Shown here piece by piece: positions 7,345 through 46,782 of a stretch of DNA of 64,000 nt. The notes beneath the pieces are model-generated. The model worked only from the letters and a program-made list of their open reading frames with translations, searched no databases and was not told the origin of the DNA. The DNA is taken from positions 19,411,110 to 19,475,109 of the forward strand of contig NC_134030.1 of assembly GCF_964204645.1 (NCBI RefSeq), in the 5' to 3' direction. This DNA is from Tubulanus polymorphus (Eukaryota; Nemertea; Palaeonemertea; Tubulaniformes; Tubulanidae). How positions within the stretch are numbered: position 1 is the stretch's first letter; every line of letters starts with the position of its first letter. The translations under genes were made by a program, and so were the position numbers.

Positions 7345-8426
7345 CTAATCCTCGACTGATGACCGAGCCAGTAATAGTTTCAAACCAGCTCGCCTGAAAT
7401 TGGAATTTGTTATGCTGTAAAGGAGGAAGTTAGCGCACGAATCTACCACGGTCAGTCCGATACCCGTTTTCCGTACAACCATTCCATATTCGTATTTGTA
7501 GTTCACTTTTATATAGCCCCTAGAAATGAATAGGTGAATGATAAACACCGACTCGCAAACGATGTAATTAGTCACAACAGTTATAACCATTCTCAACACT
7601 CTTTTCTCTATCGAACTCGATTCCGTTCGTTTTTCAGTTTTTTGCGCCGATTGCAGCATCTTACCTCGTGACTTACGTTTGACAAGGAGATTCACGATTA
7701 AGGCCGTGTTTGTTATACAAAGGAATATCATCGGAATCAAAACCCCGAATATGAAATCGGGCCCGTTAACGGTCGTCTCGATCCATTTCAGAAGCACTGA
7801 GAGTAATTCCGGAAAATGCTGAGTGGAATCTTTTTGTTCATACTTATAGTCGGTCCCGATTCGCCGCATGGTTTTGCAAAAAGGATAGTCGATCTGGGGA
7901 TGAGTTGAGGAAAGTACATGGCTACTGAACCGAGGTGTATCATCGCTAACCACAAGTTGACGACTTTGCTCGTCCAAAAAACACGTGATTTCAAAGGAAA
8001 CAATACAATTACAAACCTCTCAAAACTCAACAAGAAAACACACCAGTTCCGAGTGAAAAGAAATATGTAATAACATCCGTGAGAAACTTCAACAAATGCC
8101 CTTCCGAAATACCAGTCATCCACACGAAAAACAATATCTCCTAGAAGTCGGTAAATATGAATGGTCCTAAGCGGGTACATGACAAATACAGAAAACGAGT
8201 ACAGAACATCATTGACGGCAACCGCTTTTACTAAGTAATAAGAACGACTTTTCATCGTGTTCAAAATTACGAGGGTAAAACTGTTGAATAGTATACTGAA
8301 AATCGTTGCCGGTCCGAAGAAATATATGTACGCAAATACGCTGAACTTAAAATCCCATCTGATCGCTCTCTGTTTCCATTTCTCGCAATCAGTCAACTCA
8401 ACGACTGCACCGGTCGTGTTTAGCAT
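7345..8426 (-). pseudogene. Rhodopsin-family GPCR (FMRFamide-receptor-like), single exon with one frameshift
   Basis: Two minus-strand frames, 8426-7788 and 7977-7345, together give a seven-helix receptor of about 359 residues. I start at the ATG at 8426 (MLNTTG, with an N-glycosylation site). TM1 is about residues 31-56 with the conserved Asn in LFNSF. TM2 is about 64-88 with VND. TM3 starts near Cys118 and ends in ERF in place of DRY. TM4 is about 154-173. In the other frame come TM5 (GVLIPMIFLCITNTALIVNL), TM6 (VITVVTNYIVCESVFIIHLF) and TM7 ending NFLLYSITNSNFRR, a NPxxY variant seen in invertebrate peptide receptors. The frame changes at about 7890-7925, right after TM4. The total length, 1082 nt, is one base short of a multiple of three. 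Both halves are otherwise clean, so this is a recent pseudogene, a tolerated indel allele or an assembly error. Ligand unknown; a peptide is likely from the family. Confidence 0.8.
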
Positions 8427-9766
8427 TGTGTGTTCAGCGATCCTGTACGAGTTGAAGAGGGAGAGAGAGAATGGCTTGTATATCAACGTTTTGACGCCAT
8501 CCACCGTACGTACCAATTACCATACTGGTAATTAATCGTGTTATAGATACATCGAGACCATCAGTAAACTCTGCCGTGTTTACCATACAATCTTTAAAAT
8601 CACATTTCATAATTCTAGCGTTGCTCACTCGACACAAAATGAAAGACACAATTAAGTATGACTTTTTTTCAGGAACGACATACATTTCCATCATGTTATA
8701 ATAACTCTTCGATTGTTAATAGTTTAGTTTACAGCAGCTTTTTCACCGTTGTAGTTTTCAGTGGTTCATGTGATAGCGATTTAATTAAGGTCCTATTGGA
8801 AAATAGAGTAGAGGTTCTGGATAAATGAGGATATATGAACATTAGTAAATTGTCCTAGTTTATAATACCCCAAGCACGTAATCTGGCTTTTTCTATAATT
8901 GATGTATAAAATAAATATGATTAATGTTAAAACCTTCCAATCGTTTCACGAGATTTTTTAGCAACAATCAATGTTGATTCAAATGAAGCCCTTGGGCTTG
9001 GTGCTGCTTTGTTTATTTCGTCGTTATTTCTACCATGAGTTTTTTCGAATAAATGATATTCACTTTTATCCGTGCCGACTAAGTTGGAGGCCCATGAATT
9101 GAAATGCTCTCAAATGCAAATGTGATGATATTTTTCAAAATAGAAGTACATTTTTTGCTCATTCGTTTGTTTATTTGCTTATTCACTCATTCAGAACTGT
9201 TTGTTTCCCAATTCTACACGGTTGACACGGTTCAGTAATAGTCCTCGGAGTAATCCGTAAGAATAGCCTTCGGAGTAGTCCGTACGAATCGTCGTAACTT
9301 TGAAGCAAACTCATAGATCAACTGCCCTCACCGGACAAATTTTCTATAATTATTGATAACATCTGAGACATTTGCATTCGTCGAACCGCCATCTTGATGT
9401 CCGATTCTGTTCGTTTAGCCAGTACATCTCGAACACTGGCCGGAGTACTCCGCAGAGTGAAACGAGCAGACTACTGGTAGTACTAAACACCGACCAAAAC
9501 CGTCCAATACAGACCAAAAACCGTCCAATACCGAGACACCGACCAAAATCCTCCCAGCCGATTAAAATCACTGGTCACACTGTACATTTCTTTTGAAAAG
9601 AGAACGACAAATCGGGACATCATCCTTTCATCAGATATAAGCGATTACGCCGATCCGACTTTATTAACTCGTCTAGGTTAACACGCTGGCCGCTCTTCTA
9701 CGAATCAACTCTTAAGAAAAGCACTTTTGCGGAGACTAAAATAACTATTTCATTTATTGGATTCAT
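8427..9766. other. AT-rich intergenic stretch between the GPCR and the thyroglobulin-domain gene
   Basis: This includes the likely GPCR 5' flank, with a GA-rich tract near 8456. Direct repeats CGGAGTAATCCGTAAGAATA and CGGAGTAGTCCGTACGAAT lie at 9247-9290. A short ACCGACCAAAA / CCGTCCAATAC repeat lies at 9485-9550. The open frames near 9350-9600 come from that repeat. Nothing else can be supported. Confidence 0.3.
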
Positions 9767-9975
9767 TCAGTTATTTTTATTTGCGCAAACTTTTTCCAAA
9801 ACGTCTAATTGTCCTATGTTAACACCCGTTCCGGTGTCTATATTACCGCGCCTATCCGAACAGAAGCACTCCGACCCCTTGCATTTGGTCGATTTGTAAT
9901 CCCCGTCATCTCTGCAGTCGAACAGTAGACCCACCATTCCGGTCAAACAAAATGAAAATTTTGCCCTGGCACAAA
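9767..9975 (-). CDS. Thyroglobulin type-1 domain protein, last coding exon
   Basis: The acceptor TTTTGTTTCAG|TTTGTGCC lies at 9976/9975, and the exon codes 68 residues to a stop at 9767. The pattern C-x2-DGDY-x4-C-x4-CFC-x9-GTG-x12-C matches the core of a thyroglobulin type-1 repeat (usually DGxY, QC, CWCV, GT, C). The usual Trp of CWCV is Phe here and the Val is Ser. The exon starts in phase 1 and joins the donor at 10506 in frame, giving a Val codon. Such domains occur in secreted or matrix proteins and in cysteine-protease inhibitors (thyropins). The protein ends shortly after the last cysteine (VCANKNN). Which protein this is cannot be told from these exons. Confidence 0.72.
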
Positions 9976-25765: not shown

Positions 25766-26802
25766 AATACTAACTAGCTGACTGAAAGTCAGAAAAAGTC
25801 AAAGATTTCGGTTGTATACGTCTCCTCGGTATAGAATAAAACTCAACAAATTCTAGATTGGAGTAATATCCATGGTTTTAAGGAATGCTGTAAAAATCTA
25901 AACGCGAGCGAATCTTCCAAATAAGTAAAACATGTTCCGGGTATTGTTTGTTTCAGAAATGTTCCAGAGAATCATTAACTAATTTTTCGCTAAAAATCAT
26001 CATCAATTTTCACAGTTAAATGGAAAAAATATCATTTTCAATTATCTGTATCAAAATTGTGTGGAATATGTACAGTTAAGAAAACAAAAATTTTATCGAA
26101 ATGTTAACCGATAAATGATACGCAGAAATTGGGTAAACCTGTTTAATTCCGACGTATTCCGCGCCGATTTTTGAATAGATTTTTTATCAGGATATGCGCA
26201 ACGCGCCGAGGACGCTGTCAGTTGGATAATGTCACGGAAAGATGAGAATCAAATTTCTTTTTCAACGAAATTCGTAAAACCTTACGAGCAGATTGCGAAG
26301 ACGCGTCTTCAAACAAGAGCGGAGTAAATTTCCAACATTTCCGACGTGGCAAAAAACACCCCGCTCGTGAAACTTTATGTGAATGCCGAATGCGGGCGGC
26401 TCCGATTACATTAAGGGGACTGGAGGTGACGACGAAACAGGTTTTTATCAAACAAAACTAAATATACGGATACTTATATTCTACACCAACATTGTTTGAA
26501 TTATTCAGCATTACCGAGAATTCGAAAACGTTCGTTCGTAGAGGTGGGCGTGCAGCACTTTCGTATCGGGTGACTTGATCAAGGGGTCTGGCACTAACCT
26601 CAAAGGCATAAAAATGATTCATGAAGTGAAAATAGGTGCAACTGATTTAGCGGTGGAAATATGTCGTTTTACGTTTTTGTTGTATCTCTTAGTGATCTTT
26701 CGAACTGACAAACTTCGTTAAACATTTGTAGGTTGAACTGGTAGACTTCAAAAGTACTTTTAAGTTCACGATTGATAGAACACTATATCCGTGTTGACGC
26801 GA
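25766..26802. other. Unique AT-rich sequence
   Basis: Nothing is recognised. The minus-strand frame 26218-26451 has coding-like GC content around 26270-26430 but no domain and no convincing splice pair. Confidence 0.3.
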
Positions 26803-27036
26803 TGTGGAGAGAATCCCACAATTATAACGAAAAAGTCCGAAAATGAAACTTCGAGATAGTAGTTTATTTCAACGTTTCGACTATATCCTAATAGTCATCT
26901 TCAGGAATAATGATTCCTGAAGATGACTATTATTCCTGAAGATGACTATTAGGATATAGTCGAAACGTTGAAATAAACTACTATCTCGAAGTTTCATTTT
27001 CGGACTTTTTCGTTATAATTGTGGGATTCTCTCCAC
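26803..27036. mobile_element. Near-perfect palindromic element with hammerhead-like core
   Basis: GTGGAGAGAATCCCACAATT is inverted as AATTGTGGGATTCTCTCCAC. The match continues inward for about 100 bp almost without mismatch. The centre holds CTGAAGATGACTATTA twice. On the plus strand CTGAAGA-T-GACTAT-TAGGAT-ATAGTC-GAAAC (about 26936-26967) has the order of a hammerhead core with a 6-bp stem II, but with one extra base after CTGAAGA. It is non-coding. Confidence 0.88.
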
Positions 27037-27763
27037 ATACTTTTAAGTTGTATGCGATTAGAACGCGTAACCTCGGGGTGGGTTATACATATATAGAGCT
27101 ATGTTGTAATTAGAGAACTCTAAGTGGTTTTAGAAATTAAAATTCCGAAGTATCTCTCACCGATTGGTTGGTTGAAATGATGAACTTAGCGAATTACTTT
27201 CCAATGATTCATCAACTAATGAAGTACTAAGCATGTGATTCGTGAATTTCATAAACTGAAGTACCTTTAAGTCATTCGTCGGTTAGACTTGCAAATTCCG
27301 TAAGTGTTTCAAGTGTATTGTGATTTTACATATCATATACTACACTTCCGGTTACTGCCAGTAGGTTGAACTGAAGTAAACTTTTGGCGGTAAAGGTCCT
27401 GCAAGTGATTCGTCGGTTAAATAAGTGTACTTCTAATTGAATGGTGGTTTTAAGGGTTTGAACTAGTAATTTGCAGAGTACTTCTTTTTAAAGTTTTCGG
27501 GGAGTATAACTGATATCCTGCTGTTGAAGGACTTTTAGTTAATTCGTAGCCAAGCGATAAAAGGGTTCAATTTGCAAAAAGAATAATGAACTAGTTTTGA
27601 GCGAATCTCGGGATGGACTGACGAGATTAGAATATTGCAACTAAGCTATACTGAAATGAACACAATTCGTTCAGCCCCCGTAAAAACGAAAACATCTGTA
27701 ACTGGGTCATGTGGAGCGTTTGAAAAATTTCTACCTGAAAATTAATTCTGCGACCTTTAAACT

Positions 27764-27823: not shown

Positions 27824-28189
27824 AGATTAAACGAAAAAATCTATACAACAACAAGTGTTTTGTAAAGCATCGCGGGGGGATTAAAATAAACCGTGTGTAC
27901 GGCGTAATCTGCTTACGTCAGGGGAGTTAGTAAACAAATCAAAAACTTCGTGCGTCAATAACTTTTAAATCATCACCGCTTAGGAAAATACTATTACTAA
28001 TGATAATGATGATACTAACTATAATGACAATAGTCATATATGATTTAGCGCAGGTATCCAAACTAAGAGTCTGTTCAAGTGCACTCCAGATTTGGTATTA
28101 TTACCCCTAGCCTATAACTCTGTTTATGCATCATTCATCTCTCCCTGGGGAGAAGTTACATCCAAGCAGCTGCTAAGTGACAGGTTGTT

Positions 28190-28715
28190 TACCAGGTTCG
28201 AATCCCTGCGACGGGGGTATGTGGCAAAGTCTCACGATGTCATCAGGTTCAACTCCCTGCGAGGGAGGAACGCGGCAGAGTCTCACGATGTCATCAGGTT
28301 CGAATCCCTGCGAGGGAGGAATGTGGGAGAGTCTCACGACGTCATCAGGTTCAACTCCCTGCGAGGGAGGAACGCGGCAGAGTCTCACGATGTCATCAGG
28401 TTCAACTCCCTGCGAGGGAGGAACGCGGCAGAGTCTCACGATGTCATCAGGTTCAACTCCCTGCGAGGGAGGAACGCGGCAGAGTCTCACGATGTCATCA
28501 GGTTCAACTCCCTGCGAGGGAGGAACGCGGCAGAGTCTCACGATGTCATCAGGTTCAACTCCCTGCGAGGGAGGAACGCGGCAGAGTCTCACGATGTCAT
28601 CAGGTTCAACTCCCTGCACGAGAGGAACGTGGCAGAGTCTCACGATGTCATCAGGTTCAACTCCCTGCACGAGAGGAACGTGGCAGAGTCTCACGATGTT
28701 AACAGGTCCGAATCC
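28190..28715 (+). repeat. 51-bp minisatellite with a Pol III B-box-like motif in each unit, about ten copies
   Basis: Unit: CAGGTTCAACTCCCTGCGAG, GGAGGAACGCGGCAGAGTCT and CACGATGTCAT (51 bp). Units at the left edge have the exact B-box form GGTTCGAATCC; inner units have GGTTCAACTCC. GGCAGAGTCT resembles an A-box. Because 51 is divisible by three and the unit lacks stops in several frames, roughly 200-residue frames appear on both strands; these are not proteins. Related single or paired units lie at 12505, 40165 and 53535. Confidence 0.95.
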
Positions 28716-29440
28716 TTGCGAGGCTGAGTCGTCCAGGGCGTTCATCCTATCAAAATGCAATACTTCACGCTTGTGCGTCGTCGGTCGGTGGCAATCCTAA
28801 GCAATCCTGGGCAGTAAGGTAGATTTTTCTATGGCAAGAAAGTGTGTTACAGACTCTTAAGAATATTATCTTCATTTTTTCTTAGTCATCGGGTTCGAAT
28901 CCTGATTAATACACACAAGATCGCGTGTTGTTTATCGCGAGTTCCGATTAGCAATGTTCCGGCTGGCTAGTCAAAGCTCAGACGATCGGAACCGATCGAT
29001 CCTCGCTTGCCGCAGCTAGCAGCCACAGAATCGATGTAAGCTTATGCGAAAAAAAACTAATTATTGTAAAGCTACGAAAAGAAATCGGACTATCTGTTTT
29101 TCCTATCGGATAAACGGCCAAATATCTACGGGCTCGAGAGCTCCCTTATTTCATCGTTCACTTGGCAACGATAATCCGTGAGCTCCGATCGATTTTCAGA
29201 AATCGGCAGGTGATTTCAAGATGATTGCTATGAAATCTTTCCGCGTGCGTGACGATCGAATAGTTGACGTAAAGAAGGTTTATATCAATATGCAGTCAGA
29301 ACCCGATATATATATTTACAATGTTATTCTACTAATCTATTACCATCTAGAAAACACATACGTATTGCCTCCATGACTTCAGGATACTTTTATCAGCGCA
29401 CTTTCAAAATTTGATCGTTCATACTTAGTTCAGAACTTCG
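28716..29440. other. Intergenic sequence, partly CpG-rich
   Basis: A further B-box (CATCGGGTTCGAATCCTGAT) lies at about 28886 and a 77-bp-family fragment near 28985-29030. 29100-29260 is CpG-rich and unique. Confidence 0.35.
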
Positions 29441-31811: not shown

Positions 31812-31877
31812 CTACAGAGGAACGTTTTCCGCGTAGAGCGTGGAATCCCGTCGGGGTTCGTTTTTCCGACAATATTT
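31812..31877 (-). CDS. Neuropeptide precursor (tachykinin-related type), exon 3: mini-exon with one amidated peptide
   Basis: Acceptor CTAATTGTAG|AAATATTG lies at 31878/31877 and donor CCTCTGTAG|GTAAGT at 31812/31811, giving a 66-nt exon with phase-1 introns on both sides. Its first two bases complete the codon begun by exon 2 (C plus AA, Gln). It reads ILSEKR, TPTGFHALR, GKR and SSV. The peptide lies between a KR site and a GKR amidation/cleavage site, predicting TPTGFHALR-amide. The Phe-x-x-x-Arg-amide end resembles invertebrate tachykinin-related peptides (FxGxR-amide, with Ala at the Gly position) and natalisins. More peptides probably follow in exons further left that I could not identify. 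Secretory granule processing and GPCR signalling are inferred from the family. Confidence 0.75.
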   Translation of the reverse strand, partial: KYCRKNEPRRDSTLYAENVPL

Positions 31878-32036
31878 CTACAATTAGAAACAGCGTAAAC
31901 ACGATAAGATTATAGAATTTCAAACGTTCTCTATAAGACTCGGAGAGGAGCCGTGTTAACCGGGCGTAGAGTGAAAACAACAAGACGAAAAGTACTTTAA
32001 TGGTGAACTATTTAAATGAGGACTTCGTGTCACCGG

Positions 32037-32372
32037 CTATCCCGCTAGATGGCGTGCGTAACAGTGCGACAACCCCGTCAAAATCTAGTTCATTTTGAAT
32101 GAACATTCATCTAGATTTTTAGCCTCCGTCGTCAGAAATTAGGCAAATCACTCCTCTTGATAAACACAGATGATCTTAGGGTTCATATTTAAGGTGGTTT
32201 TTAACAAATCATCATTCAAGGAATTTGGGAAATTATGGATAGACTTTAATCTAATACGAGAAGAAATCCGGGAGTTGTTGTTTGAGCGCACACTAGCGAA
32301 CCTGGTGAATCCTCGCTGCATCCTCGCTTGCCACAAGTGGAATCCTCGATTGCCACGGTCGAACGTAGAGTC
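32037..32372. repeat. Fragments of two dispersed families
   Basis: CTAGATGGCGTG, then CTAGTTCATTTTGAATGAAC and TAGATTTTTAGCCTCC (the 21120-type family), lie at 32045-32130. TCCTCGCTTGCCACAAGTGG and AATCCTCGATTGCCACGG (the 77-bp family) lie at 32310-32360. Confidence 0.7.
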
Positions 32373-32704
32373 CCCATGAAAGCTCGAGCTTTCACTACTA
32401 GTGTATACTAGCTTCATCGGGTAAATGAATGAGTGACTTGATGAAGCTGATGAAACTTCTTTACTACATTAGTAGCGAAAGCTCGTGCTCCACATAAAAT
32501 AACTAACTTTAGCACTACACATCTCCGAATCTCTGTATTCAAACATATCCAAAACAGATTTAGAATGTGAAAAAGCCTAGAGGGGCGGATCCATGAGCCA
32601 TATCCCATTGTATTCCAGATTCAAAAGGGCCCTTAATTATTCTATACCTTCAGTACACTGAGTGACAGGGAATCATCTGATGTCATAGATCTATGATCTA
32701 TAGA

Positions 32705-33000
32705 TGATCTTTTTTTTTTTTCTTTCTATAAATTCTCTTTGTTTTGTTTCTTTATCTTGTTATCTTTGTTTGTTTGTTTTTTGTCTTGTTTTGTTCGTTT
32801 TTTCTTCTCTATTATAACTCAGGAGGGCGGTACATAACACAAGCACCGAGCTTCCTTGTACCGTCCTCGCTGGTTTGTTCTTAAAATACATTCTATATTT
32901 ACATCATTGTAACAATACAAATGTACGTATTATATAACCTATTGTATGAATATATAATGTAAAAACAATCGCAGTAAGTAAAGTTATTACTAATAAATAG
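32705..33000. repeat. T-rich tract and possible retroelement 3' end
   Basis: A poly-T and TTTG-rich stretch (32709-32810) is followed by AGGAGGGCGGTACATAACAC and GCTTCCTTGTACCGTCCTCG, a loose inverted pair around GGACGGTAC. I see it once only, so the family is uncertain. Confidence 0.35.
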
Positions 33001-33320
33001 GGCACCTCCAGTATGTAAAATTATGAGGGGATTCGATAGATGTTGAAGACACCGTCGCCATATTTTCTAGGAAGGCAAAATCTATCTTGAATATCTTGAA
33101 TATTACCTTGTGAAGCACGCTTTCCTCTAACTGCATAAAAACCATTTGGAGGCTGCCGTTTGACTGCATTTGCTGTAAAATATTAAAACGAACGCATGTT
33201 TAAAATGATAGTTGTTTTCACAGCGAAATTTCGCTATGAGCAACTTCAGGGCGCCAAAAAAAATATGTTCGTTATAGCCGATAGTTTCCTAGACAGCGGA
33301 ACCTCGTTACAACGAACTCC

Positions 33321-33461
33321 AGGGGCCAGTTGCAGAGTCGTGACTTAAGTCCAAAAGTGGTCTTAAATTTTAAGACTGGTCTTAGGTAGTTGGATTGGCT
33401 ATAAAACTTAGTTGGTCTTAGACTGGTCTTAAGTCTAGGCCATGACTATGCAACCGGCCCC
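33321..33461 (-). mobile_element. GGGGCC-ended MITE, copy 3
   Basis: GGGGCCAGTTGCAGAGTCGT to ATGACTATGCAACCGGCCCC, with the interior in reverse orientation (GACTTAAGTCCAAAAGTGGT). It interrupts direct repeats of about 90 bp (GAACCTCGTTACAACGAACT at 33299 and near 33580, and TCTGTTCGTTATAACCGATAG). Confidence 0.9.
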
Positions 33462-34684
33462 AGGACACCAGAAAATCTGTTCGTTATAACCGATAGACTT
33501 TTTAGACTGTGGAATAACCCCGTTGGAACTAACATCAGGGTATCAGAAAATATGTTCGTTTTAACTGACTGTTCTATCAGCGGAACCTCGTTACAACGAA
33601 CTTCAACGATCTGCTTTGATTTTTTTTTCTACACAAAAATGTTTATAATTAACAAAGTATATAAGATTTACAATATGGTATTTAGACAATACAATCTGGT
33701 TAAAACGAACCTTAGGGCACAAGGTAATCTCTCCATTATTATAACCGATATTGTTGATCAGACAATATATTGTTCCTAGGGCTTTATTTAATCTTCCTAC
33801 ATCGGGTTTTCTACGCAGTCAGCTTTAGCCGAAACATTATGATAAAAGTAAATGGCTAAAAAATTGATAAGTTAAAATTTTTATTACGGACATCAAGGCA
33901 CCAGAAAATAGATATAAACCTATTTATTCTACATCTGTGGCCACATGGCGGAAATTGAAAATTGATGTTCATCCCACGTGGGGAAAGAAATACGATAGTT
34001 TGCAAGTCGTGTTTCTGGTAGACTTCCAGAGATAGAGTTTCAATTTTTCAACTTAATCGCCGCGGTGTCTGGCTGATTCTAGTTCCCGGGAGCCGGTTAC
34101 ATTTCACTTCACTTCTCTTCGAAATTTGTCAATTTACACGTAAACCCAAGGGCTGCTTTTATGTTTGGTCTTGAATTCACTGTGACGTTAAAAGAGGACC
34201 TGAAGTGTTTGAACATCGCACTACTTTGACCAGACTTTATTGTATAGAAATCTGTTGTTTAGAAATCTTGTTCATTGTTTCGTATAAGTCCCGTTGGGTC
34301 TGATTCTAAAACTAAGTTCACCAACTCAATTTAGCTCAGAAATCCCTTTATAGAAGTTTAGTAGGTTTTTTCGCCTAGTTCATGGAGTTTTAAGATTTAG
34401 CCATTCCTCGAGAATTAAGCCCAGATTAAACGTTAGTTTTTCCAGATATCCCCCCGAACTAGGGTTTTAGTCTCCATAAACCCCTAGAATTCGCTGTTTC
34501 AATCGCTCTTCTCATAGAGCCCGTTATCTCACCTTTCCATCGAGGTCAAGTCATCCTCTTCCCCGATAATCCCAGTTTTCACAACCCTAAGAGCGCTGAA
34601 TTTCCCATACACAATGCCCAAACAGCTCGAGATTTAGTTTTTTCTGTAACTCTTATTTTAATTAGGTCCTTTCTAACCCACACC

Positions 34685-34687
<3 letters not shown>
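33462..34687. other. Intronic sequence of the neuropeptide gene, otherwise unique
   Basis: Degenerate tandem copies of TTCGTTATAACCGATAG and CAGCGGAACCTCGTTACAAC lie at 33230-33620. The rest shows no ORF or known repeat. Confidence 0.35.
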
Positions 34688-34741
<54 letters not shown>

Positions 34742-34830
34742 CATCATTATTATCATTATCATTATTATTATCATTATGATAACTATTATTATTGATGTAA
34801 TAATTATCATTGTCATTATCATTAACTTTT
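34688..34830. repeat. (TTA)n and (TTATCA)n microsatellite
   Basis: About 18 perfect TTA units from 34688, then ATCATTATTATCATTATC-type imperfect repeats to about 34825. An Asn-rich frame on the minus strand is an artefact. Confidence 0.97.
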
Positions 34831-35023
34831 TTCAGGGCATCGGCAGCTTCTATGAGTTCAGCCACTAGGCTTGTCGATGTCCTCTCTTTGCATTGATTGC
34901 CATTATTATTATGTTAATTAATCAATATGTTATTTATAATGCTTAGCTAAATAAAGATAATTATATTATATTCTACCCCTACGGTTCAGTTTCAATCCGA
35001 GAATTATACCATTTCTAACTTAC

Positions 35024-35204
35024 GTCGGTTGTAATCACTGCCGTGTTTGAGTTCCATTAGTCTCGTCAGTTCGTTAAGTACGAGTAGATTTTTGTTTTTG
35101 TCGTTACTGAAAGCGGATGACCGATCGATCGTCTCTTCAGATGAGCCACTTCTGTCCCGTTCAACGGGCGAAATGTCAGCGTTGAATATCGAGCTTAACA
35201 TCTC
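35024..35204 (-). CDS. Neuropeptide precursor, exon 2: spacer propeptide
   Basis: Acceptor TTTTGTTACAG|GAGATG lies at 35205/35204 and donor AACCGAC|GTAAGT at 35024/35023. The exon is 181 nt, 60 codons plus one base. It begins in phase 0, as exon 1 ends, and ends in phase 1, as exon 3 requires. It encodes an acidic, polar spacer beginning EMLSSIFNADISPVERDR and ending ELKHGSDYNR. No amidated peptide is seen in it; VERDR and NLLVLNELTRLMELK are not clear cleavage products. A long linker before the first active peptide is normal for tachykinin-type precursors. Confidence 0.68.
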
Positions 35205-35344
35205 CTGTAACAAAACAATACGATGCAAAAGATGAGCGCCTCGTAGCTTTGAGAAATCAATGGCTGCGGTAATAATGCAGCTTTTTCATCGGCTGTTCAG
35301 GATTTCAGACTCATCTAGCTGAAAACAATACTACAGTCACCAGA

Positions 35345-35665
35345 CATTAGACATTTTATCAGCACACTTTCAAAAACTGATCGTCCACACTTCACATGTG
35401 TTCAGTACTTCACCTGAGACATTTCTAATTGAAAATGAACTACAAACACCAGACATTAGACATTTTATCAGCACACTTTCAAACAATGAACATCCACACT
35501 TCACATGCGTTCGGAATATCGCCTGATGCATTTTCAATAGAAATTGAACAGGCATTATAAATCATATCGGTGCACTTTCAAAAACTACTCATCCATAAGT
35601 TCAGAACTTCACCCGAGACATTTTTGATCGAAAATGAATTATAGACACGAGACATTAGACATTTC
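35345..35665 (-). repeat. 107-bp tandem family, three units, reverse orientation
   Basis: CACCAGACATTAGACATTTT, ATCAGCACACTTTCAAAAAC and GATCGTCCACACTTCACATG, repeated, in an intron of the neuropeptide gene. Units diverge towards the right. Confidence 0.88.
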
Positions 35666-36404
35666 ATCAGCTCAATTCAAGGATTTTACCAGCGTCCATA
35701 GCATGTATATGAATATCCAAACCTAATGATAAAATCAGTCCATCTAGCGGATGAATAGGTTAGTAGGTCAGTCATCTGTTAGGTGACCTTGCCCATACTC
35801 CAAGGTTTTCATTGTCACCACACGATAGGAGAAGCTGTTCCTATAAGTAAGTTCTAGGTGAATTTGAGATATTTTCGGAGGGCTTCAATTTGCCCCCAAT
35901 ACATGTAAAATCGCTGCTTTCATACAGGTATTCCTTTAGATTCGAATCTTGTTTAGTATAAGCCGCCAGAAAACGCTACTTTGCGGCCATATTTAATATG
36001 AAAGATTGACATCGGATCACATCCTGCTCGCGAACCTGTACCGAAAGACAAAAAATCAATAGAGATCGTCGAATTTGAAAATATCATATTAATACATTGA
36101 TGAATATATGAGCTCTGCCTCATGGCTATATTCGTGGCCATATATCGGTATTGGTATTTTGGATATATTCTTCAAAACGATTTTTGAAGAAGACTTATTT
36201 AACCAGTCGATTTTGCGGCTTCTTTCAATAACGATAGTTAGAAATATCATCTTGATTTAGAAAGCTCGCTTATTGGAACGCTGCCCATTGCCGTTTTCAG
36301 TGCGTAGGTAGATTGGCACAAAACTTTCATGGCACTCGGACGCCTTTTCATGTAATTGATTCTTCTCAGATTCTGTTCTACATCTTTTATTTCTCGAAGA
36401 ATTA

Positions 36405-36745
36405 TGTAGCACCAGACATAATAGATATTTTATCAACACACTTTCAAAAACTGGTCGTCCACACTTCACCTGAGACATTTCTAATTGAAAATGAACTACA
36501 AACACCAGATATTAGACATTTATCAGCACACTTTCAAAAACTGATCGTCCACACTTCACATGTGTTCAGTGCTTCACCTGAAACATTTCTAATTGAAAAT
36601 GAACTACAAACACCAGGCATTAGACATTTTATCAGCGCACTTTCAAAAACTGATCGTCCACCCTTCACACGTGTTCAGTGCTTCACCTGAGACATTTTAA
36701 TCGAAAATGCCAGCACCAGACATTAGACATTTAATCAGCTCACTT
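36405..36745 (-). repeat. 107-bp tandem family, about three units, reverse orientation
   Basis: The same unit as 35345, including GTTCAGTGCTTCACCTGA and GAAAATGAACTACAAACACC. The overlapping 125-residue plus-strand frame is array read-through. Confidence 0.88.
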
Positions 36746-36749
36746 TAAT

Positions 36750-38740
36750 TCGAGAATCACTTTCGACTTTAATTTTCATTAATAATATCAGATTTTCTAT
36801 ATCGTCGTCACGACACAGGCCAGGTTTCATCAATGAGAGATGATACAAATTACAGGCAATTCATTAACAACAATTGGCATAAAGGATGACTAGAAAGTAT
36901 CTCAGTAGTTATTATGAATAAATGAATAGCAATGTCAATCAAAAGTTAAGCTGATACAATCGCATTCGCCAGAAGCGTACTAGATTACAGAGACGACGAC
37001 GTCTTCTATAGGGTTCACTACTGCGGGTAACCGAACATCTCAAAAAGCAATTACGTCATAGATCTCATTTTGTGATGAGTATAATCAGTTAATTTAGCAG
37101 AAACGCTAAAAGGTTGGCTGCGTTCCCATTTCAAAAATGAAAGTTATCCTCGAGTTTCTTGATAACACGATCGGTGAAATAAAAGCGAGATGGTTTTTTT
37201 TCAAAAATAAATATTTACACCGTATTTAGGCTAATCCGATGCCTGGGCGTTGTGTCACAAAAGACACGGCGAACTGGGGCCGCTGTGACGGATCCTGCGA
37301 GTGCAATTTCGCGGTCGCTTCCTAATGAAATTGAACGCTATTCTATTTTTCACACGTCGCGGGCAATATTTGCGGAGATAATGGATTAGAAGTTCTTCAC
37401 AGACACAGGCGCACACACCTGAGTTGATATCGAAAAAATCTTCCCTCGACATCGGCGAACCAATTCCGGAGAGAGCGCGCACGCAAACCCGGCTCCGTGC
37501 CTGCAACGAGCTTGTCGGCGTTTATTTCATCTCAAACTTTTAGAGGAACCTCAGTAATCTAATCGAAATGTTCATTCGCTCGAATGAAAGTAGATAACTG
37601 ATAAAATTGCAAACATAGCATCCCTCGTATTTTTATTTCTTTTTTATACATAAAAAGCGTGCATTAAAATAAGTGATTCGTTTCGTCGACGTCTCGCGAG
37701 TAATTTTCGTTTTACGACCGATCGGCGACCGGTTGGTCGTTCGCTGCAGTTAAAACACGAACTCGACGCCCGACGAAGCGACGGCGCCGTTTTGTGTCAA
37801 ATCATCATCAGACGTTCGGTCGAATAAAACCAATCTACAATTCAAACCGAGACGCGTAATTCGATTTCTTCTTCAACTGTTTATTTCGTGGCGTTTATGA
37901 AAATTCAATCAACGAAATGTCAACTCGAATTATCAGCAATTATTCGCCTTTTCCACGGTTGGAATTTTGATAATGGTCGGTGCTTTAAAAAAGTTCAGAC
38001 CAGTCGCGATAATGATAGTAATAGCAATAATAACAATGCTGATGATGAATAAAGATTCAGTGTTGTAGCGATCACGGGTTTTCTGCACATTTCACATTCG
38101 AATCGAAGGAAATGATATTGTAAAAGTTAATATCGTCTGGCATTCGAACCCGATATCGTAATTGGAGGAAATTGAGAAAGTTACGGAAATTGATGCGTGA
38201 TCTGGGTATCTCGGAGCCATCCTCTTTCTCTGGCACGTAAACGGCGCCACAAAGAAACGATCTAGCTACGCCCGATTTCCTTCAGCAATTAATGCGTACC
38301 ACACTATTACTTTATCTAAACAACGACTTTAAAATAGCATGGACAGCACATACATAAAATCTACTGGGCTTGGAAAAACTGATGTATTTCTGTCATAACT
38401 TTTCATCAGCTTTTTAGTAGTCGAATGATGGGTGAGAGATCTTTTTTTACGTTAACTGGAAAGGGGAAATAATATACACGGGAAAATAACAATATGGGTT
38501 TTTTTGCGGGATCGCTAATAAAGATTTCGGCCAGTCTCTCCGCAGGCACGTTATTCATTACAGAATAGAGCATAAACATCGTCAATTCAATTCAACATTC
38601 ATTCTACACAACCATGCATTATACATTTAGTTATGACACCATTTCAACTATAAGCCATCTAACAAAGCCTCATAAAGTAGAGGCCGAACCTTCTCTCTAA
38701 GTGTCTGAATATAAGGTCAGTAAGTGTATTCCTCGTGAAA
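36750..38740. other. Intronic sequence with a CpG-rich middle
   Basis: 37080-37520 and 37680-37900 are CpG-rich and unique (GAGAGAGCGCGCACGCAAAC; GACCGATCGGCGACCGGTTGG). They may be enhancers of the neuropeptide gene. The minus-strand frame at 37255-37506 is unsupported. 38068-38250 is a copy of the 16262 family. Confidence 0.35.
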
Positions 38741-38746
38741 TTAAAA

Positions 38747-39300
38747 AAATTTAAGATCCATAGAAGCTAAAACAGTACAAATCTCATTTTCTAATGAGTA
38801 ATATATATTCATTAAGCGAACGTTTTCGGGAGTTACATTATCTCCTCTTCGGGCATAGCGCAAGTGATTAAATTTACATATCATACTGGTACTTATATAG
38901 AATAAGACGAAGCTATTTACAAACGATTTCAAATTACTGAGTGACAAGATAATTACAATTCAAAGATAATTAATTACACACACAATCTAAATTACTGAGT
39001 GACGATATTTGACTAGTAGTTAATTATCTAAAAACATTGAGAATGAATCCTGACCCGTGTTCGAATAGTTGTTGATTAAGGGAGGGCTGTTGAGTTTCGA
39101 TAAAAAGTGCTTCTCTAATTTTGCAATCTAAATCAGAAGATCCTTTATCTAAAATTTTGATATTCTTTTCGCTAAACGAGACCTGACAGTCACGGCAATT
39201 TGACGGATGTTGGCCAATTGCTGAAGTCTAAATATATATTACTCATTAGAAAATGAAATTTGTATTGTTTTTGCTTCTATGGACCTTAAATTATCTAGAC
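38747..39300. repeat. Inverted pair of about 60-bp arms, 420 bp apart
   Basis: TTAAGATCCATAGAAGCTAA continuing to ATTTTCTAATGAGTAATATA at 38751-38812 is inverted at 39232-39295 (TATATTACTCATTAGAAAAT to TTCTATGGACCTTAAATTAT). It may be a foldback element or old TIRs; the interior is non-coding. Confidence 0.75.
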
Positions 39301-39330
39301 TATCTAGCTGAGATCTAATTAAAAAAATGG

Positions 39331-39414
39331 TTTGGATACCGAGCCTTGACTGTGCAGCAGGGCCCTCAAACATTTGGATACCGAGCCTTGACTGTGCAGC
39401 AGGGCCCTCAAACG
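39331..39414. repeat. Two tandem copies of a 41-bp unit
   Basis: TTTGGATACCGAGCCTTGAC then TGTGCAGCAGGGCCCTCAAAC occurs twice with no difference I can see, indicating a very recent duplication. Confidence 0.95.
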
Positions 39415-40052
39415 AAATGTGTCGAAAAAAATAAACAAATATGTATGTTTTGATGAACAAAAACTCAACCATTCGAAGTCATTTGTTCTTTTGAAAGCGG
39501 AAATGCACACAAGACGTCAACGACGTCTTTCAAATGTCTGGCAACGACATATATTTCATCATCAATGAAAAAAACCAAGACAAAGTTACTGCACTCAACG
39601 ACTAGAATAGAGTCTATTTTTAATCCACATGTTCAGAAAATGATCTCGGTAACGTTTTTAAGCTCGTCTCGGGTTGCAATCCCGCACCGTAGCATTCAAA
39701 TTACGTAGTCGGCCGAGTTTTGAATAATTAATCAAAACGGCTGAAGTTAACGATTAAATATATGCGTATGTATTCAGAATGTGCGTGATTTATTAAAATC
39801 TTCCCCGCTGTAAACGGACGCCGATTCAACTGAAAGCGCTGCTCGGTGTCTGCTCGGTCCGTGTTTTCTACGGACTATTATTCATATATCGTCAATTTTT
39901 GGCTGCATAAATGAATGGTTACGACAAAACTCACGCACGCACGCATGCACGCACGCACGCACACATACACGCACCGTGGGTTAAATGCCAGCCTATAAAA
40001 CTGGGCCCGGATGGCCCCATTCTTGAACTATTCAGAAAATTTACATCTTTAC

Positions 40053-40140
40053 ACTCGACCTAGTTTCCTCATCGCGGGCCTAGTTTCCTCATCGCGGGCC
40101 TAGTTTCCTCATCGCGGGCCTAGTCGCCTCATCGCGGGCA
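40053..40140. repeat. 20-bp tandem repeat, four copies
   Basis: GGGCCTAGTTTCCTCATCGC repeated; the last copy has TCGCC in place of TTTCC. Confidence 0.96.
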
Positions 40141-40164
40141 TTCTAATCCGATGGGGTCGCGGGA

Positions 40165-40335
40165 CAATGCGTCATCCCGCCCTCGCAGGGATTCGAAACT
40201 ACCGCGAGACTCTGCCGCGTGCCTCGTTAGCGGGCATTTGAAAACTGATGACATCGCGAGACTCTGCCACGTTCCTCCCACACAGGGATTCGAACCTAAT
40301 GACATCGAAAGACTCTGTCACGTTGGGTAACATGG
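40165..40335 (-). repeat. Units of the 51-bp B-box repeat, reverse orientation
   Basis: CTCGCAGGGATTCGAAACTA, GACATCGCGAGACTCTGCCA and CGTTCCTCCCACACAGGGAT, then TCGAACCTAATGACATCG. It represents about three diverged units on the minus strand, directly after the 20-bp repeat. Confidence 0.8.
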
Positions 40336-41045
40336 TAAGTCAACTTGAGCGGAACCACTCCTCTTAAGGTCGAAAGCTAAAAACAGCGTTTAAAGCGAAG
40401 CCCTTTCAAACATCACACGATTCTAAATGTTAAACGCTCTTTTTAGATTGTTGCGATTTCCTTTAATCACAAAACATTGAACAACGCGGATCGTCCCAGC
40501 AGTTTAGTTATTTGCCTTTGAAATTCGGAAAACAGGAACGCGATGATTAATACATCGACTTGGCCAAACCGAGTTTATCCGGAGCCGCTCACTTGGGAAA
40601 CGAAAGATCACCCTTCAGCGCAATTAATTTTAGGAGTTATCCTTTGATATAAAAAGCGGTTCATATAACCGTTTTTGAAGTCAATTGGACCAATCATAAC
40701 TCGCGTGTTGACTTGTTTATCTGAACGTAACTGATTTTGATCAACTACCGCGCGATGAACTCGGTCTGAAGAATATTCGCGTCGATACAAACTGCGACCG
40801 TACATCGACGACTTTTAAAAACGCGCTTAACAAGGTGACAAAATATCTTAGTTTTTTCGCCGAACGAAATGAATTATGATCTTTTCGTTCTAACGGAATG
40901 TTTTTCGCGTCTTTTGTAGAGACGAACGTTTATTTCCGAGAAAAAAAACCCATTTCGCAAAAAGAAAACATGTCACATATTTGGATCCAAGGAATCAAGT
41001 ATTTTCAGCTTGTAACCTCTCCTGTCGGAATAACTCAAACCTTGT

Positions 41046-41157
41046 ACCCAGTTCCAAGTTATGAGTTAGAGTTAACTCTGAGATAAAGTTAGTTCATTTT
41101 CAATGAGTTTACTCAGAGTTAAATCTTAATTCAGAACAGTGTAGTGTGAAACTGGGC
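41046..41157. mobile_element. Palindromic MITE with ACCCAGTTCC ends, copy 1
   Basis: ACCCAGTTCCAAGTTATGAG pairs imperfectly with the right end GTAGTGTGAAACTGGGCCC. The inner GTTAACTCTGAG pairs with CTCAGAGTTAA around AGTTCATTTTCAATGAG. It directly abuts the GGGGCC MITE at 41161. Confidence 0.7.
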
Positions 41158-41160
41158 CCA

Positions 41161-41301
41161 GGGGCCGGTTGCATAGTCGTGGCTTAGACTTAAGACCAGT
41201 CTAAGACCAACTTAGTTCTATAGCCGATCTAACAACTTAAGACCAGTCTTAAGATTTAAAGACCCCTTTTGGACTTAAGTCACGACTGTGGAACTGGCCC
41301 C
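41161..41301 (+). mobile_element. GGGGCC-ended MITE, copy 4
   Basis: GGGGCCGGTTGCATAGTCGT to GACTGTGGAACTGGCCCC, with interior TAAGACCAGTCTAAGACCAA. It has the same orientation as copy 1 at 10832. Confidence 0.92.
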
Positions 41302-41631
41302 AGGTGTACAGAAAAAGCCCGTGACGACCGTATAGGCGACTAGCGATTGGTCCATTAACCTTGTCGAGAATACAGTACGTTCCATTTTAGGAAAAAGAAC
41401 AGGAACTCCCAGGGCAGAGGCTAGGGGTGGGGTGTAACATTTGAGAGAAGTGATTTAAAAATGATACGCACTCGTGCGATTCTGTCTGCCGGATGATGGA
41501 AGGTCATTATCGACGTTGACAAAACCTGGCAAATTCATCATTTATTCAGATTATAGAAATAGACTGCGCTTATTATCGATGACGTGTAGAAATTGTAGGC
41601 TAATTCTCTCTGAGTTTGCAGCGTTGACTGG

Positions 41632-41985
41632 TGGAGAGGGAGAGGTAGAGGTAGAGGTAGAGGTAGAGGGAGAGGTAGAGGTAGAGGGAGAGGGAGAGGG
41701 AGAGGGAGAGGGAGAGGGAGAGGGAGAGGGAGAGGGAGAGGGAGACGGAGACGGAGAGGGAGAGGGAGAGAGAGAGGAAGAGGGAGAGAGACAGGGAGAG
41801 GGGCAGGGAGGGACAGGAAGAGGGACAGGGACAGGGACAGAGAGAGGCCCAGGGACTGGGATGGGAACGGGACAGGGACAGGGAGGGACAGGGACAGAGG
41901 CAGAGAGAGGGACAGGGACCGGGACAGGGACGGGACAGGGACACGGACAGAGACAGGAACAGGGACAGGGACTGGCAGAGGCCAA
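41632..41985 (+). repeat. Polypurine minisatellite, about 350 nt
   Basis: It starts as GAGGTA units, becomes (GAGGGA)n, then (GGACAG)n with interruptions. The plus strand is almost purely A/G until C enters the GGGACAGGGACAGGG part. EGEGEG, SPSPSP and similar frames on both strands are artefacts. Confidence 0.96.
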
Positions 41986-42621
41986 GGGGAGAGTCAGCGC
42001 CTAGCTATCCAACACGACAGTTTGTTCCACGCGAAAATAAGAATTAGCTCATTTTCATCTTTTTTTTCACCGCCATAGTTTTCTTATTAAACTGAAGAAC
42101 CCCAAAACACTATCACACGCGAAGCCTTTCAACAGATATCAGATATTTTACTCATCTTTAGTCGGTTTCGGATGCCGTTTTCGTTGATACTTGATTCACG
42201 AGTACAAACGAGAAACAAGAAACGTTCATACGATTTTGACTGAAATGTCAAACGAACTGAAGGACTGAGGAACGAGTTAACAACTAAACTAGCTACACCT
42301 GGTGAATCGGGCAGATTTTCGAAATTTGAAATGCGAAAAACGGCTAACGATAACTGACCGAACTTCGACTGCCAGAGAAGTAATCCTGAATTTACATTTA
42401 CTTATGCACACCATCCACTGGTCTTGTTAACCTTCATTTCAAATTAATTCTAATATTTTCATCATTTTTCCTAAGATTTGCTCCGATTCGTTTTGATTCG
42501 GTGTCCAAATACAAGCCTGCGCCACACCTACCGGCAGCGAAACTGAATGGGACGAGGCGCTGCGGGTAACCAACGATATCATAATAGAACGATAACCACA
42601 CTCAAACGTGGTGAACGGATA

Positions 42622-42871
42622 ATAAGATAAAAACCCACTATCTACAGATTAAAAGAATCTAAAAACAAGAATTTATTTATTCAATCTAAAATACATAGAG
42701 TACACAACGTTTCGATCTCATCCTAGAGATCATCGTCAGGTGTGACAACGCACCTGACGATGATCTCTAGGGTGAGATCGAAACGTCGTGGCTTATATAT
42801 ATTTTAGATTGAATAGAAAAATTGTTGTTTTTAAATTCTTTTAATATGTAGATAGTGGATTATTATCTTAT
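42622..42871. mobile_element. Palindromic element with hammerhead-like core, second type
   Basis: ATAAGATAAAAACCCACTAT, then CTACAGATTAAAAGAATCTAA, is inverted as TTCTTTTAATATGTAGATAGTGG and ATTATTATCTTAT. The centre on the plus strand reads CTGACGA-T-GATCTC-TAGGGT-GAGATC-GAAAC (about 42753-42785), mirrored at about 42706-42738. It shows the same layout as 26803-27036, with different stem sequence. Confidence 0.85.
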
Positions 42872-43611
42872 CAACGATATCAGAAACTGGAAATAACGTT
42901 TCGCGGGCCTTTGTCCCAATGTCGGACAGAGCTGGCGAGCGATGAACTAAACCTAGTGACGTCACCGTTTTCGCCGACTTCCTAATACGGGCATGTTATT
43001 GTTTCGTTGTTCCGTTCGGGGAATCGGATATAAACTGAAAATTAATTCATTTCGTCTCCCCTGAGACGAACGCAATTTGGCGGCGCGAATATCGATAACA
43101 TTTTAATAACCGACTTTTTATGACATTTTTTACGGCGAAAAAGATATATTGACGGACAGCTGAAATTTATCGTACTAATTACGAATTTAATTGCTCTGAC
43201 AATCGTAGAAATGACGGATACATTCTGCGCGTACTCAACCATGACTTGGGAATAATGAATAATTAATTTCCTTTTGGTTTGGAATAGAATTTTGATAATG
43301 AATTTTGAAGTGTTTTCAATTCTATCATTCTCACTTAGGATGTCGGGTACTAGAATGTTTGGGAGTAACTACAGGTTTGCCGCCAGGTGGCGTGATGATC
43401 ATTCCGCAGTGTTATGGTGTAAAACTAGTTCACTATCAATGAACTTTGAACGGAATTCTTAGGTTTCAAAATCGATACATTATCACATGACCCACACCCA
43501 GGTATTTGATAAATTCATAATTTTGATACTGGCATATCCTTTATTGTACTGCGCCGATTGAAGGTAACACAATTGTGTCGTATCTTGATTATACCTAAAT
43601 GATTACAGTTC

Positions 43612-43723
43612 TGGGTCCAGTTCCACAGTTCCGAGTTGGTATTTAACTCTGAATTGACTCATCGAAAATGAACTTACTTTAACTCAGAGTTAACTCCAAA
43701 CTCATAACTGCGGCACTGGGTCC
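43612..43723. mobile_element. Palindromic MITE with ACCCAGTTCC ends, copy 2
   Basis: TGGGTCCAGTTCCACAGTTC and GCGGCACTGGGTCCC are inverted ends. TTTAACTCTGAATTGACTCAT pairs with the right side around AAAATGAACTTACTTTAACTC. It is homologous to 41046-41157. Confidence 0.8.
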
Positions 43724-43996
43724 CGATGATAATAATGATAATACCAATGTTTAGAATTCAGTTGACATCGAATTTGAAAGAAAAAACTTTATACTGAGCA
43801 CGTTGTATTTAGGTAGCCCGCATGACGTCATACGCATAGCAAGTTGTCAGTGCGCGTTCAGAAAATTCGTGCACCTGTTATTCATTTTTCAAACCCGTAT
43901 ATTTATTCAAGTTCAGTGTTTATCGAAAAACTAACATTTATTACTGGTACGTATATCGGTTAGTAAACTATTGAATGAGATCATAATTTGAACGGA

Positions 43997-44197
43997 TTCG
44001 TTCGTTCGTTCGTTCGTTCGTTCGTTCGTTCGTTCGTTCGTTCGTTCGTTCGTTCGTTCGTTCGTTCGTTCGTTCGTTCGTTCGTTCGTTCGTTCGTTCG
44101 TTCGTTCGTTCGTTCGTTCGTTCGTTCGTTCGTTCGTTCGTTCGTTCGTTCGTTCGTTCGTTCGTTCGTTCGTTCGTTCGTTCTATCGTTCTATCGT
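43997..44197. repeat. (TTCG)n microsatellite, about 46 units
   Basis: Nearly perfect from 43997 to about 44182, ending with two TTCTATCG variants. Its NERT and RSFV frames on the two strands are artefacts. Every unit carries a CpG. Confidence 0.98.
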
Positions 44198-44199
44198 AA

Positions 44200-46625
44200 A
44201 AATTACGACATCTTTCGCACAAGATCGAAAACTCTTTGTTGTCACACCGCGCAAAAAACCGGCTACCAAAAGTATTTGTGTCTCATTAATCATTAAACTT
44301 CAACCCTGGAAAAGAATTTTGAATTAATTCTTGGATGAGAATGGAACAAACCGCACCATCCTTAGAATTTTTTTTCGCGAAATCCGTTGCGAGCTCAGTT
44401 CGGAAATGCGCACTTCCTTTGGCGGACAATCGAACCACGCGAAATTCAGATCAAAAGATTTCTTATGATATCGTAATCCGAAGCCGATCCAAAAGGTTTT
44501 AGAAACAAAGTTCACAACTGGAGGATCTGAAAAAATCGGAACTCGGAATCGAGAAGGAAAATAAAATGAAATTCGCGGATAAAGCTGCACCGCATAGGTC
44601 GCTCTGCGTTGAATATCTTTGAAGAAAAGATTCAATTTCCGAGTGGGTTAGATTTAAATTCGTTCGTTTTACCAATCCTTTGTAATACGAAAAGCAACCT
44701 CGATAAGAAAACAGGTAATTTGCACACCCGAGCGACACCCAACAGCCTCTCCCCTCAATCCGCCCGTGAACGCGGTAAGATACCTACTAAACACAAACCC
44801 TTTGTTTAACTGTTCATTCATTCTTACATTCATAAATTTGGACGTTAACGAATCTGGCCGTCTTCGAGCCGAATTTCGTCCCGAAAAAGATCTACCCGCC
44901 CGATGTTGGGAAACCGTTCTTTCCTTGGAGATAAATCATCCTTCCAGGTTTATCAACTTGCAATTGCTTGTAAACTAATAGAAATTGACTAGCAATCAAG
45001 TTACATTAGATTACATAAGAGATGAGGGAAAACCCGGTTTAATTCAGCCGAAAAGAAGAAAGTTCTTGTGAAAATTGATTTTAGCAACTTTTCGTTTATA
45101 GACAAACAGCTATAACCAACCATACTCAGTTCTTAATTACCGAGATCGCCCGATCAGTACGATGATGGCTATTAGTATATAGCCGAATCATGGTTCAAAT
45201 ATGTAAAACCTTTTCTCGAGAACTTTTCATGTTTAGCTGAAGTGATGTGGGTACTCATCTTACACGGATATGTAATGTATTTTTTTCGACTCGGGATGAG
45301 TAGACCTAAAGCTACTTCAGGGCACGGTTCAACAGATCTTCGGGCTCAACTTTTCGTAAACTCGTCCATTCAAATCAATCCATTTCTAAACAGTTTATAT
45401 AATGAACATCGTCGATTTACGAGTTTTTTGCATAATTTCGTGAGGATCTTCGGGGCTCGAAATCGGCAGGAATTGGATTTTAACCCCGAGGTTTCCGAGA
45501 ATCAAAGTAATTTGCATCCGGGCCAACTGCTATGACCACATAATTCGTTAATTTCAGTTTTCTCTGACTCTGGGGCACGTTTTCTAACCTGGATGACGGA
45601 ATTGGTGTAACTGCTTTGTGTACGAAATGAATGTTATGCTCTTTTCTAAAAATTGTTTTCGCTCTATCCCATCTGCAGGAACCAAACGGATTCTGAGTTA
45701 ATGGCAAAAACACGTCTGTTAATACAACGGTGTGTAGGGTGAGCGGTAAAAATGTCTAGATCATTTTCAAATAATTCTCTTTTTATTCTATACGGGTTCG
45801 TAGTCCGAACGAATTTAAAAATACGAATCAGTTGAAAAATCGATATTTATACGAAAGACAGAGCACCGTCCATCACGGCGAAAACGAGGTTGCATACGGC
45901 AGACGATTTGTTAAATCGAGCGCGATGCGGTGACGAGCGAGATTCGGCGAGATTTGACGAGGAAGGGAAATACGCGTGAACTGATGTCGTAAATAATACC
46001 GCAATTTCCGGTAACGATTCAGTCGACTTCCGGTCGGCCTCGTCAACTTTTTCTGATTGATTGCTACAATTTATACGATGTTACTAGTATGTAACGTGCG
46101 TGCATTCTATCTAATCAATATCGCCTCCAAATGTAAACAATAGTTATGTACCATTTTGCCCCTTAAAAGTCGAATAGATATCGCGTAACCGCTGCCCTGG
46201 TAAGTTCAAAAAGATGTTGGGTACATTTTCTGCCCTTAATCTAACGTCAAATAGGCGTCATGTGATTGATTAACCTTACCAATAATAATCCTTCACCAAA
46301 GATTTCAAAAAGAAAGTCTATCGCCACTTCGTGAAATCATTATTCATAATTAAATAACATTATTTTACTGCAATTGTTTTTACTGAAATATGAAACAATA
46401 TTATGCAATAGTAAATTCATATAGTTACAATAATGTAAATATAAATTGTAAAGTAAACTGTAAAGTTGCTGCCAATATTTTATTGTAAAAATACAACAAT
46501 ATTTCTAACAGTGTATATCTACCAACGAGTCAAAGTTTTGAACTTTTTAAAAATTTTATAAATTTCGATAACTTACACACGAATGAGTCAATAGCGACCG
46601 AGGATATATCACGATATATTTATTC
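44200..46625. other. Mostly unique sequence, intron of the neuropeptide gene
   Basis: The minus-strand frame 44324-44635 (103 aa, with RFRVPIFSDPPVVNFVSKTF) and frames near 45242-45713 have no domain or splice support. 45870-46040 is CpG-rich. 46370-46510 is AT-rich with weak self-complementarity. Confidence 0.35.
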
Positions 46626-46631
46626 ATTTAC

Positions 46632-46782
46632 CTTTACGTCGATTAGGTTACGATTCAACTGCTTCAGTTCGCTGACGATATCGTCGGTGTTGAATTCCGT
46701 TTCCAGTCCGGCTGCCGTGCATAAGATTATCAAAAACACCCCCATAACACTTCGCGTGTAATCCATTTCGATTCTTCGGTGG
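46632..46782 (-). CDS. Neuropeptide precursor, exon 1: signal peptide
   Basis: An acceptor, TTCGTTTCAG|CCACCG, at 46783/46782 gives 16 nt of 5' UTR before the ATG at 46766, so a non-coding exon lies further right. The 45 codons end exactly in phase 0 at GTAAAG|GTAAAT (46632/46631). MDYTRSVMGVFLIILCTAAG is a typical signal peptide with hydrophobic core VMGVFLIILC. It is followed by LETEFNTDDIVSELKQLNRN and LIDVK. Joined in phase to 35024-35204 and 31812-31877, it gives a secreted prohormone with an intron of about 11.4 kb and one of about 3.1 kb. Linking to exon 2 rests on phase, strand and plausibility, not on transcripts. Confidence 0.68.

Follow-up and report, generated by a model that had tools for sequence, protein, structure and literature searches.

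On the minus strand of the 64,000-nucleotide stretch of DNA analysed here (the window) lies a neuropeptide precursor gene of several exons, whose splice sites are canonical and whose phases fit together. It is very probably a lophotrochozoan tachykinin-related precursor that releases two peptides for tachykinin-type G protein-coupled receptors (GPCRs) of the same genome. Judged by the frame and build of the peptides and by the receptors that accompany them, the precursor is most likely of the tachykinin type, that is, an FxAxR variant working as a tachykinin. In the mechanism we propose, the signal peptide would take the pre-propeptide into the secretory pathway, prohormone convertases would cleave at the KR sites, carboxypeptidase would remove the K/R residues and PAM would convert the C-terminal Gly to an amide; the released QPPNGFYAVR-amide and TPTGFHALR-amide could then act on one or more of three tachykinin-type GPCRs. 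Expression, processing, receptor pairing and the missing 3′ exon or exons are the parts of this scheme that we infer.

Structure of the precursor gene

The gene has at least four coding exons and at least two peptides (Table 1). Exon 1 encodes MDYTRSVMGVFLIILCTAAG, a hydrophobic, signal-peptide-like start, followed by LETEFNTDDIVSELKQLNRNLIDVK; the signal peptide is judged from hydropathy only, a measure on which 2.5% of the window's 199 open ATG starts come up to this one. Exon 2 has the best score among the 17 rows of the exon scan, and exon 3 is symmetric, such that its omission preserves the reading frame. The joined frame of the four exons is open over 149 residues and reaches no stop codon, exon 4 is terminated by a strong donor, and the introns are up to 11.4 kb long. 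The last exon or exons are expected between 31.8 kb and the nearest genes seen further along the minus strand, which are a Thyroglobulin_1 exon at ∼9.9 kb and, at 8.5-7.3 kb, a GPCR. The first-pass annotation had described a neuropeptide precursor of three exons with a single predicted peptide. A signal-like start, a spacer and dibasic and GKR sites are indeed present, exons 1, 2 and 4 stand with their splice sites and phases, and KR-TPTGFHALR-GKR is read after the start and spacer as had been claimed; exon 3, however, had been overlooked, and it supplies a second peptide, KR-QPPNGFYAVR-GKR.

We consider it highly improbable that these exons are chance open stretches, or the remains of a decayed gene, as the missing terminal exon, the long introns and the suboptimal donor of exon 3 might suggest. 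When 150 windows were simulated as first-order Markov copies of the real one, the motif [KR][KR]-x(4-12)-FxxxR-G[KR][KR] was found at just two sites in all of them together, compared with two sites in the real window, which lie 1.3 kb apart on the same strand. A search of the 268-Mb genome for codons spelling GF-x-[G/A]-[F/L/I/M/V]-[R/S]-GK gave six exact matches, only two of which, exons 3 and 4, have dibasic sites on both sides (GKR plus an upstream KR); the four matches outside the window run on as GKI, GKW, GKF and GKG and thus lack the second basic residue, and one of them has Ser for Arg, yet KK upstream. When the 149-residue precursor was itself searched against the genome, with E values allowed up to 10, the four matches returned were its own four exons.

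The two peptide exons also match each other in frame, length and phase: each is 66 nt long with phase 1-1, and the peptides are in register. The peptides are identical at 9 of 21 residues, a likeness equalled in none of 20000 shuffles, yet the exons agree at just 31 of 66 nt. Seven core residues (G, F, A, R, G, K and R) are common to both; five of them are encoded by different codons (counted by eye), and the core codon differences are mostly silent. Because the protein likeness exceeds the codon likeness, the pair fits an old exon duplication that was probably retained for its peptide.

Elsewhere on the minus strand of the window, no other KR...GKR stretch resembles a further paracopy. Other [FYW]xxxRG[KR] sites (48436, 40197, 24194 and 7462) were rejected as peptides, being without an upstream dibasic site or a second basic residue after RGR; one of them contains a stop. 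A CobA match of the precursor in Pfam (E 0.13, under the cut-off) was set aside as chance, and the window was empty both in an Rfam search (gathering scores) and in a tRNA scan.

Table 1. Positions of the precursor gene, its predicted products and the receptor-like loci
Feature	Position	Strand	Description
Exon 1	46782-46632	-	End of 5′UTR, start codon ATG at 46766, signal-peptide-like start and beginning of spacer; phase 0 at its 3′ end
Exon 1 splice sites	acceptor AG 46784-46783	-	Acceptor within 5′UTR; donor GTAAAT
Signal-peptide-like start	about 46766-46707	-	Cleavage point predicted
Exon 2	35204-35024	-	60-residue spacer; phase 0 to 1; acceptor TTGTTACAG, donor GTAAGT
Exon 3	33172-33107	-	KR-QPPNGFYAVR-GKR; phase 1 to 1; acceptor ATTTTACAG, weaker donor GTAATA
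Exon 4	31877-31812	-	KR-TPTGFHALR-GKR; phase 1 to 1; acceptor TAATTGTAG, donor GTAAGT
QPPNGFYAVR-amide	33126..33155	-	Predicted processing; N-terminal Gln may become pyroglutamate
TPTGFHALR-amide	31831..31857	-	Predicted processing
Receptor-like locus	C2 7.141-7.159 Mb		First exon 58%, TM6-7 exon 66% identical to Drosophila tachykinin receptor
Receptor-like locus	C4 22.976-22.981 Mb		First exon 55%, TM6-7 exon 64% identical to Drosophila tachykinin receptor
Receptor-like locus	C4 4.073-4.076 Mb		First exon 52%, TM6-7 exon 68% identical to Drosophila tachykinin receptor

The peptides among tachykinins and natalisins

We compared the two peptides with 28 tachykinins and 6 natalisins, hand-picked from publications, with the known FxAxR tachykinins left out of the set. 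Both window peptides are 9-10 residues long and share the whole xPxGFxxxR frame with tachykinins, and both carry the core Phe and a terminal Arg followed by GKR, from which Arg-amide would be formed. Their top scores (34 and 26) are both against the locust peptide GPSGFYGVR. The third residue from the end is Ala in both, versus Gly in all 28 tachykinins of this hand-picked set. The Gly of the FxGxR and FxGLM endings is common to most protostome and vertebrate tachykinins (PMC6880623). The position does admit other small residues, since certain peptides of molluscs and Drosophila have Ala or Pro there (PMC11365428). When Ala was put in place of this Gly in Aplysia, potency did not change significantly at either receptor isoform, whereas Leu, Asp or Lys raised the EC50 above 10 micromolar, and replacement of the core Phe or the terminal Arg-amide was the most damaging to activity (PMC11365428). 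Because the Aplysia receptors tolerate the Gly-to-Ala change, the window peptides should work as tachykinins.

FxAxR is also a form of FxxxR, the ending of natalisins, and a natalisin-type precursor acting on a natalisin receptor would likewise hold several copies. Drosophila NTL4 ends in FFATR-amide, and DTK6 (FVAVR-amide) reportedly activates a receptor later assigned to natalisins (PMC6880623); therefore, FxAxR alone does not decide the receptor. We nevertheless regard a natalisin identity as very unlikely. The core Phe of the window peptides is preceded by Gly, as in 24 of the 28 tachykinins but only one of the six natalisins, whereas five of the six natalisins have Pro at this place and those in the set are longer; the best natalisin scores, from these six peptides only, are 19 and 12. 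The family is, moreover, described as restricted to Panarthropoda (PMC6880623), whereas the host here is lophotrochozoan by its Hox genes.

Receptors, ligand search and host lineage

A search of the genome with a Drosophila tachykinin receptor gave 133 GPCR-like matches. The best E-value (4e-54) belongs to a different, intronless GPCR with 36% identity, after which come many GPCRs with weaker matches. By identity, three loci with receptor-like exons stand out (Table 1); their first exons have AHKRMRTVTNYFLVNLA in common, and the loci would provide the genome with putative tachykinin-type receptors. Searched against solved structures, all three first exons have neurokinin receptors at the top (NK3R at 6.6e-29, 1.3e-24 and 2.1e-45). 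The next structure class, NPY1R, follows at 1.9e-15 for the first query and 2.3e-27 for the third, and for the second query only neurokinin receptors lie beyond 1e-20. A further GPCR candidate lies in the window itself. At 7345-8516 on the minus strand, two open frames overlap whose likeness to 7tm_1 (E 8.3e-7 and 2e-6) falls slightly short of the Pfam cut-off; they reach only E 0.0082 against solved structures and are orphan-like rather than a tachykinin receptor.

Several points weigh against a tachykinin assignment. The peptides end in FYAVR and FHALR and so depart, in both copies, from the strict FxGxR-amide motif, and the many phase-1 candidates for a terminal exon in the window include none that is convincing. 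The three loci resemble tachykinin receptors at the level of exon similarity, and the pairing of ligand and receptors is drawn from genome content only. A genome-wide search for the FxGxR-GKR pattern gave 10 matches (13 for the reversed control), not one of which is an FxGxR-GKR preceded by a dibasic site, but such a search would miss a Gly-type ligand that has different cleavage ends or whose motif is interrupted by an intron. The genome searches made brought up no tachykinin-like ligand other than the window gene.

The unmatched FxGxR motif could also point to a separate family of amidated FxAxR peptides whose ending resembles that of tachykinins by convergence and which signals through some other receptor, for which the 133 GPCR-like matches offer candidates; the precursor spacer, for its part, has no known relative in a Pfam search. 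We consider this very unlikely, given that the whole xPxGFxxxR frame is common to the window peptides and tachykinins and that three tachykinin-receptor-like loci would otherwise have no ligand found. The first-pass annotation had left two options, a related amidated family or a divergent tachykinin. A tachykinin is favoured by the GF core, the three receptor-like loci, the lack of an FxGxR-GKR ligand in the pattern search and the published tolerance of the Gly-to-Ala change.

By its Hox genes, the animal belongs most probably to the lophotrochozoans, in keeping with the setting first proposed. A homeodomain search of the genome gave 38 matches. Ten Hox genes lie collinear on one strand of contig 6 (5.318-5.635 Mb), the same chromosome as the window (371 bases were read at ten places); by their sequence signatures, we take them to be Post2, Lox2, Lox4, Antp, Lox5, Scr, Dfd, Hox3, pb and lab. 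KLNGPN follows the homeodomain in the gene named Lox5, a presumed Evx-like gene lies 185 kb from Post2, and Post1 was not identified among the Hox genes read. The arrangement is similar to that of Capitella, where one scaffold carries eight Hox genes, a second lox2 and Post2, and a third Post1 (PMC2603591).

A hymenopteran origin, at first suggested by the high CpG content of the window, was rejected on account of these Hox genes and because GFQGMRGK gave no site with up to one mismatch and 7tm_6 only three weak matches, although these all pass the family cut-off. A COX1 family search had no match, and three further peptide patterns did not point to a phylum. The CCAP pattern had 0 matches. 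The FMRFG[KR]R pattern gave no real site (its three matches read FMSFGNS, FMRFGQR and FMSFGRS), an absence that would be odd for an annelid or mollusc. A SIFamide pattern had four one-mismatch matches (surroundings unread) versus two in the control. The CpG observed/expected ratio of the window is 1.28, which is unusually high for a lophotrochozoan and may reflect little DNA methylation.

The remainder of the window holds, on the minus strand, a very GC-rich frame of 447 residues that includes a domain resembling FAST kinases (307-1650; FAST_1, E 3.3e-13), and a Thyroglobulin type-1 repeat in an open stretch that looks like an exon (9770-9975; E 3.4e-6, above the cut-off). Tandem arrays are found at 1723-2662 (40-nt units), 28091-28804 (51-nt units, with long frames that stay open on both strands) and 43957-44232 (4-nt units, seen as 8), and a 110-nt perfect inverted repeat with a 17-nt spacer at 26802-27038. 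At a distance of 50 kb below the window, blocks recur every 7.5-7.8 kb that hold reverse-transcriptase-like frames together with a family of Gly-rich genes and are apparently tandem-amplified.

Comparison with known tachykinin systems

It is possible, though we hold it as a tentative and somewhat doubtful proposal, that the whole tachykinin system of this animal has shifted from FxGxR to FxAxR, with a sole precursor that is all-Ala, a Gly form lost from the genome and three duplicated receptors that co-evolved with the ligand. If true, the shift would mean that the internal residue most conserved in a bilaterian signal family has changed in nature, and an animal with seemingly all-Ala tachykinins and three receptor-like genes would offer a natural test of ligand-receptor co-evolution.

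Compared with the lophotrochozoan tachykinins of Aplysia (QPHLGFHGSR-amide; PMC11365428) and abalone (pQPHFGFHGVR-amide; PMC9521575), the window gene is alike in the xPxGFxxxR-amide build of its 9-10-residue peptides, in its signal peptide, in its paracopies between dibasic sites and in the putative tachykinin-type receptors of its genome; it differs in having Ala third from the end in both peptides, where those two have Gly. The same Gly-to-Ala change is seen in cockroach FxAxR-amides, which have been detected by mass spectrometry (PMC1574313), and in Drosophila DTK6 (PMC6880623), but these are reported as deviating copies next to FxGxR ones, whereas both copies found in the window gene have Ala. 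The tachykinin of Capitella teleta, named in a figure legend as an exception to FXGXR-amide (PMC11365428), likewise departs from FxGxR and may be the same variant as the window peptides, in which case the variant is possibly already known; FHALR itself appears, in a literature search without supplements, only in papers on other subjects by their titles. The gene is thus a variant of a well-known signalling family and not a new family: FxAxR is already known from minor or deviating copies, and what is unusual here is that both copies carry Ala, that the searches found no Gly form and that three receptor-like loci are present.

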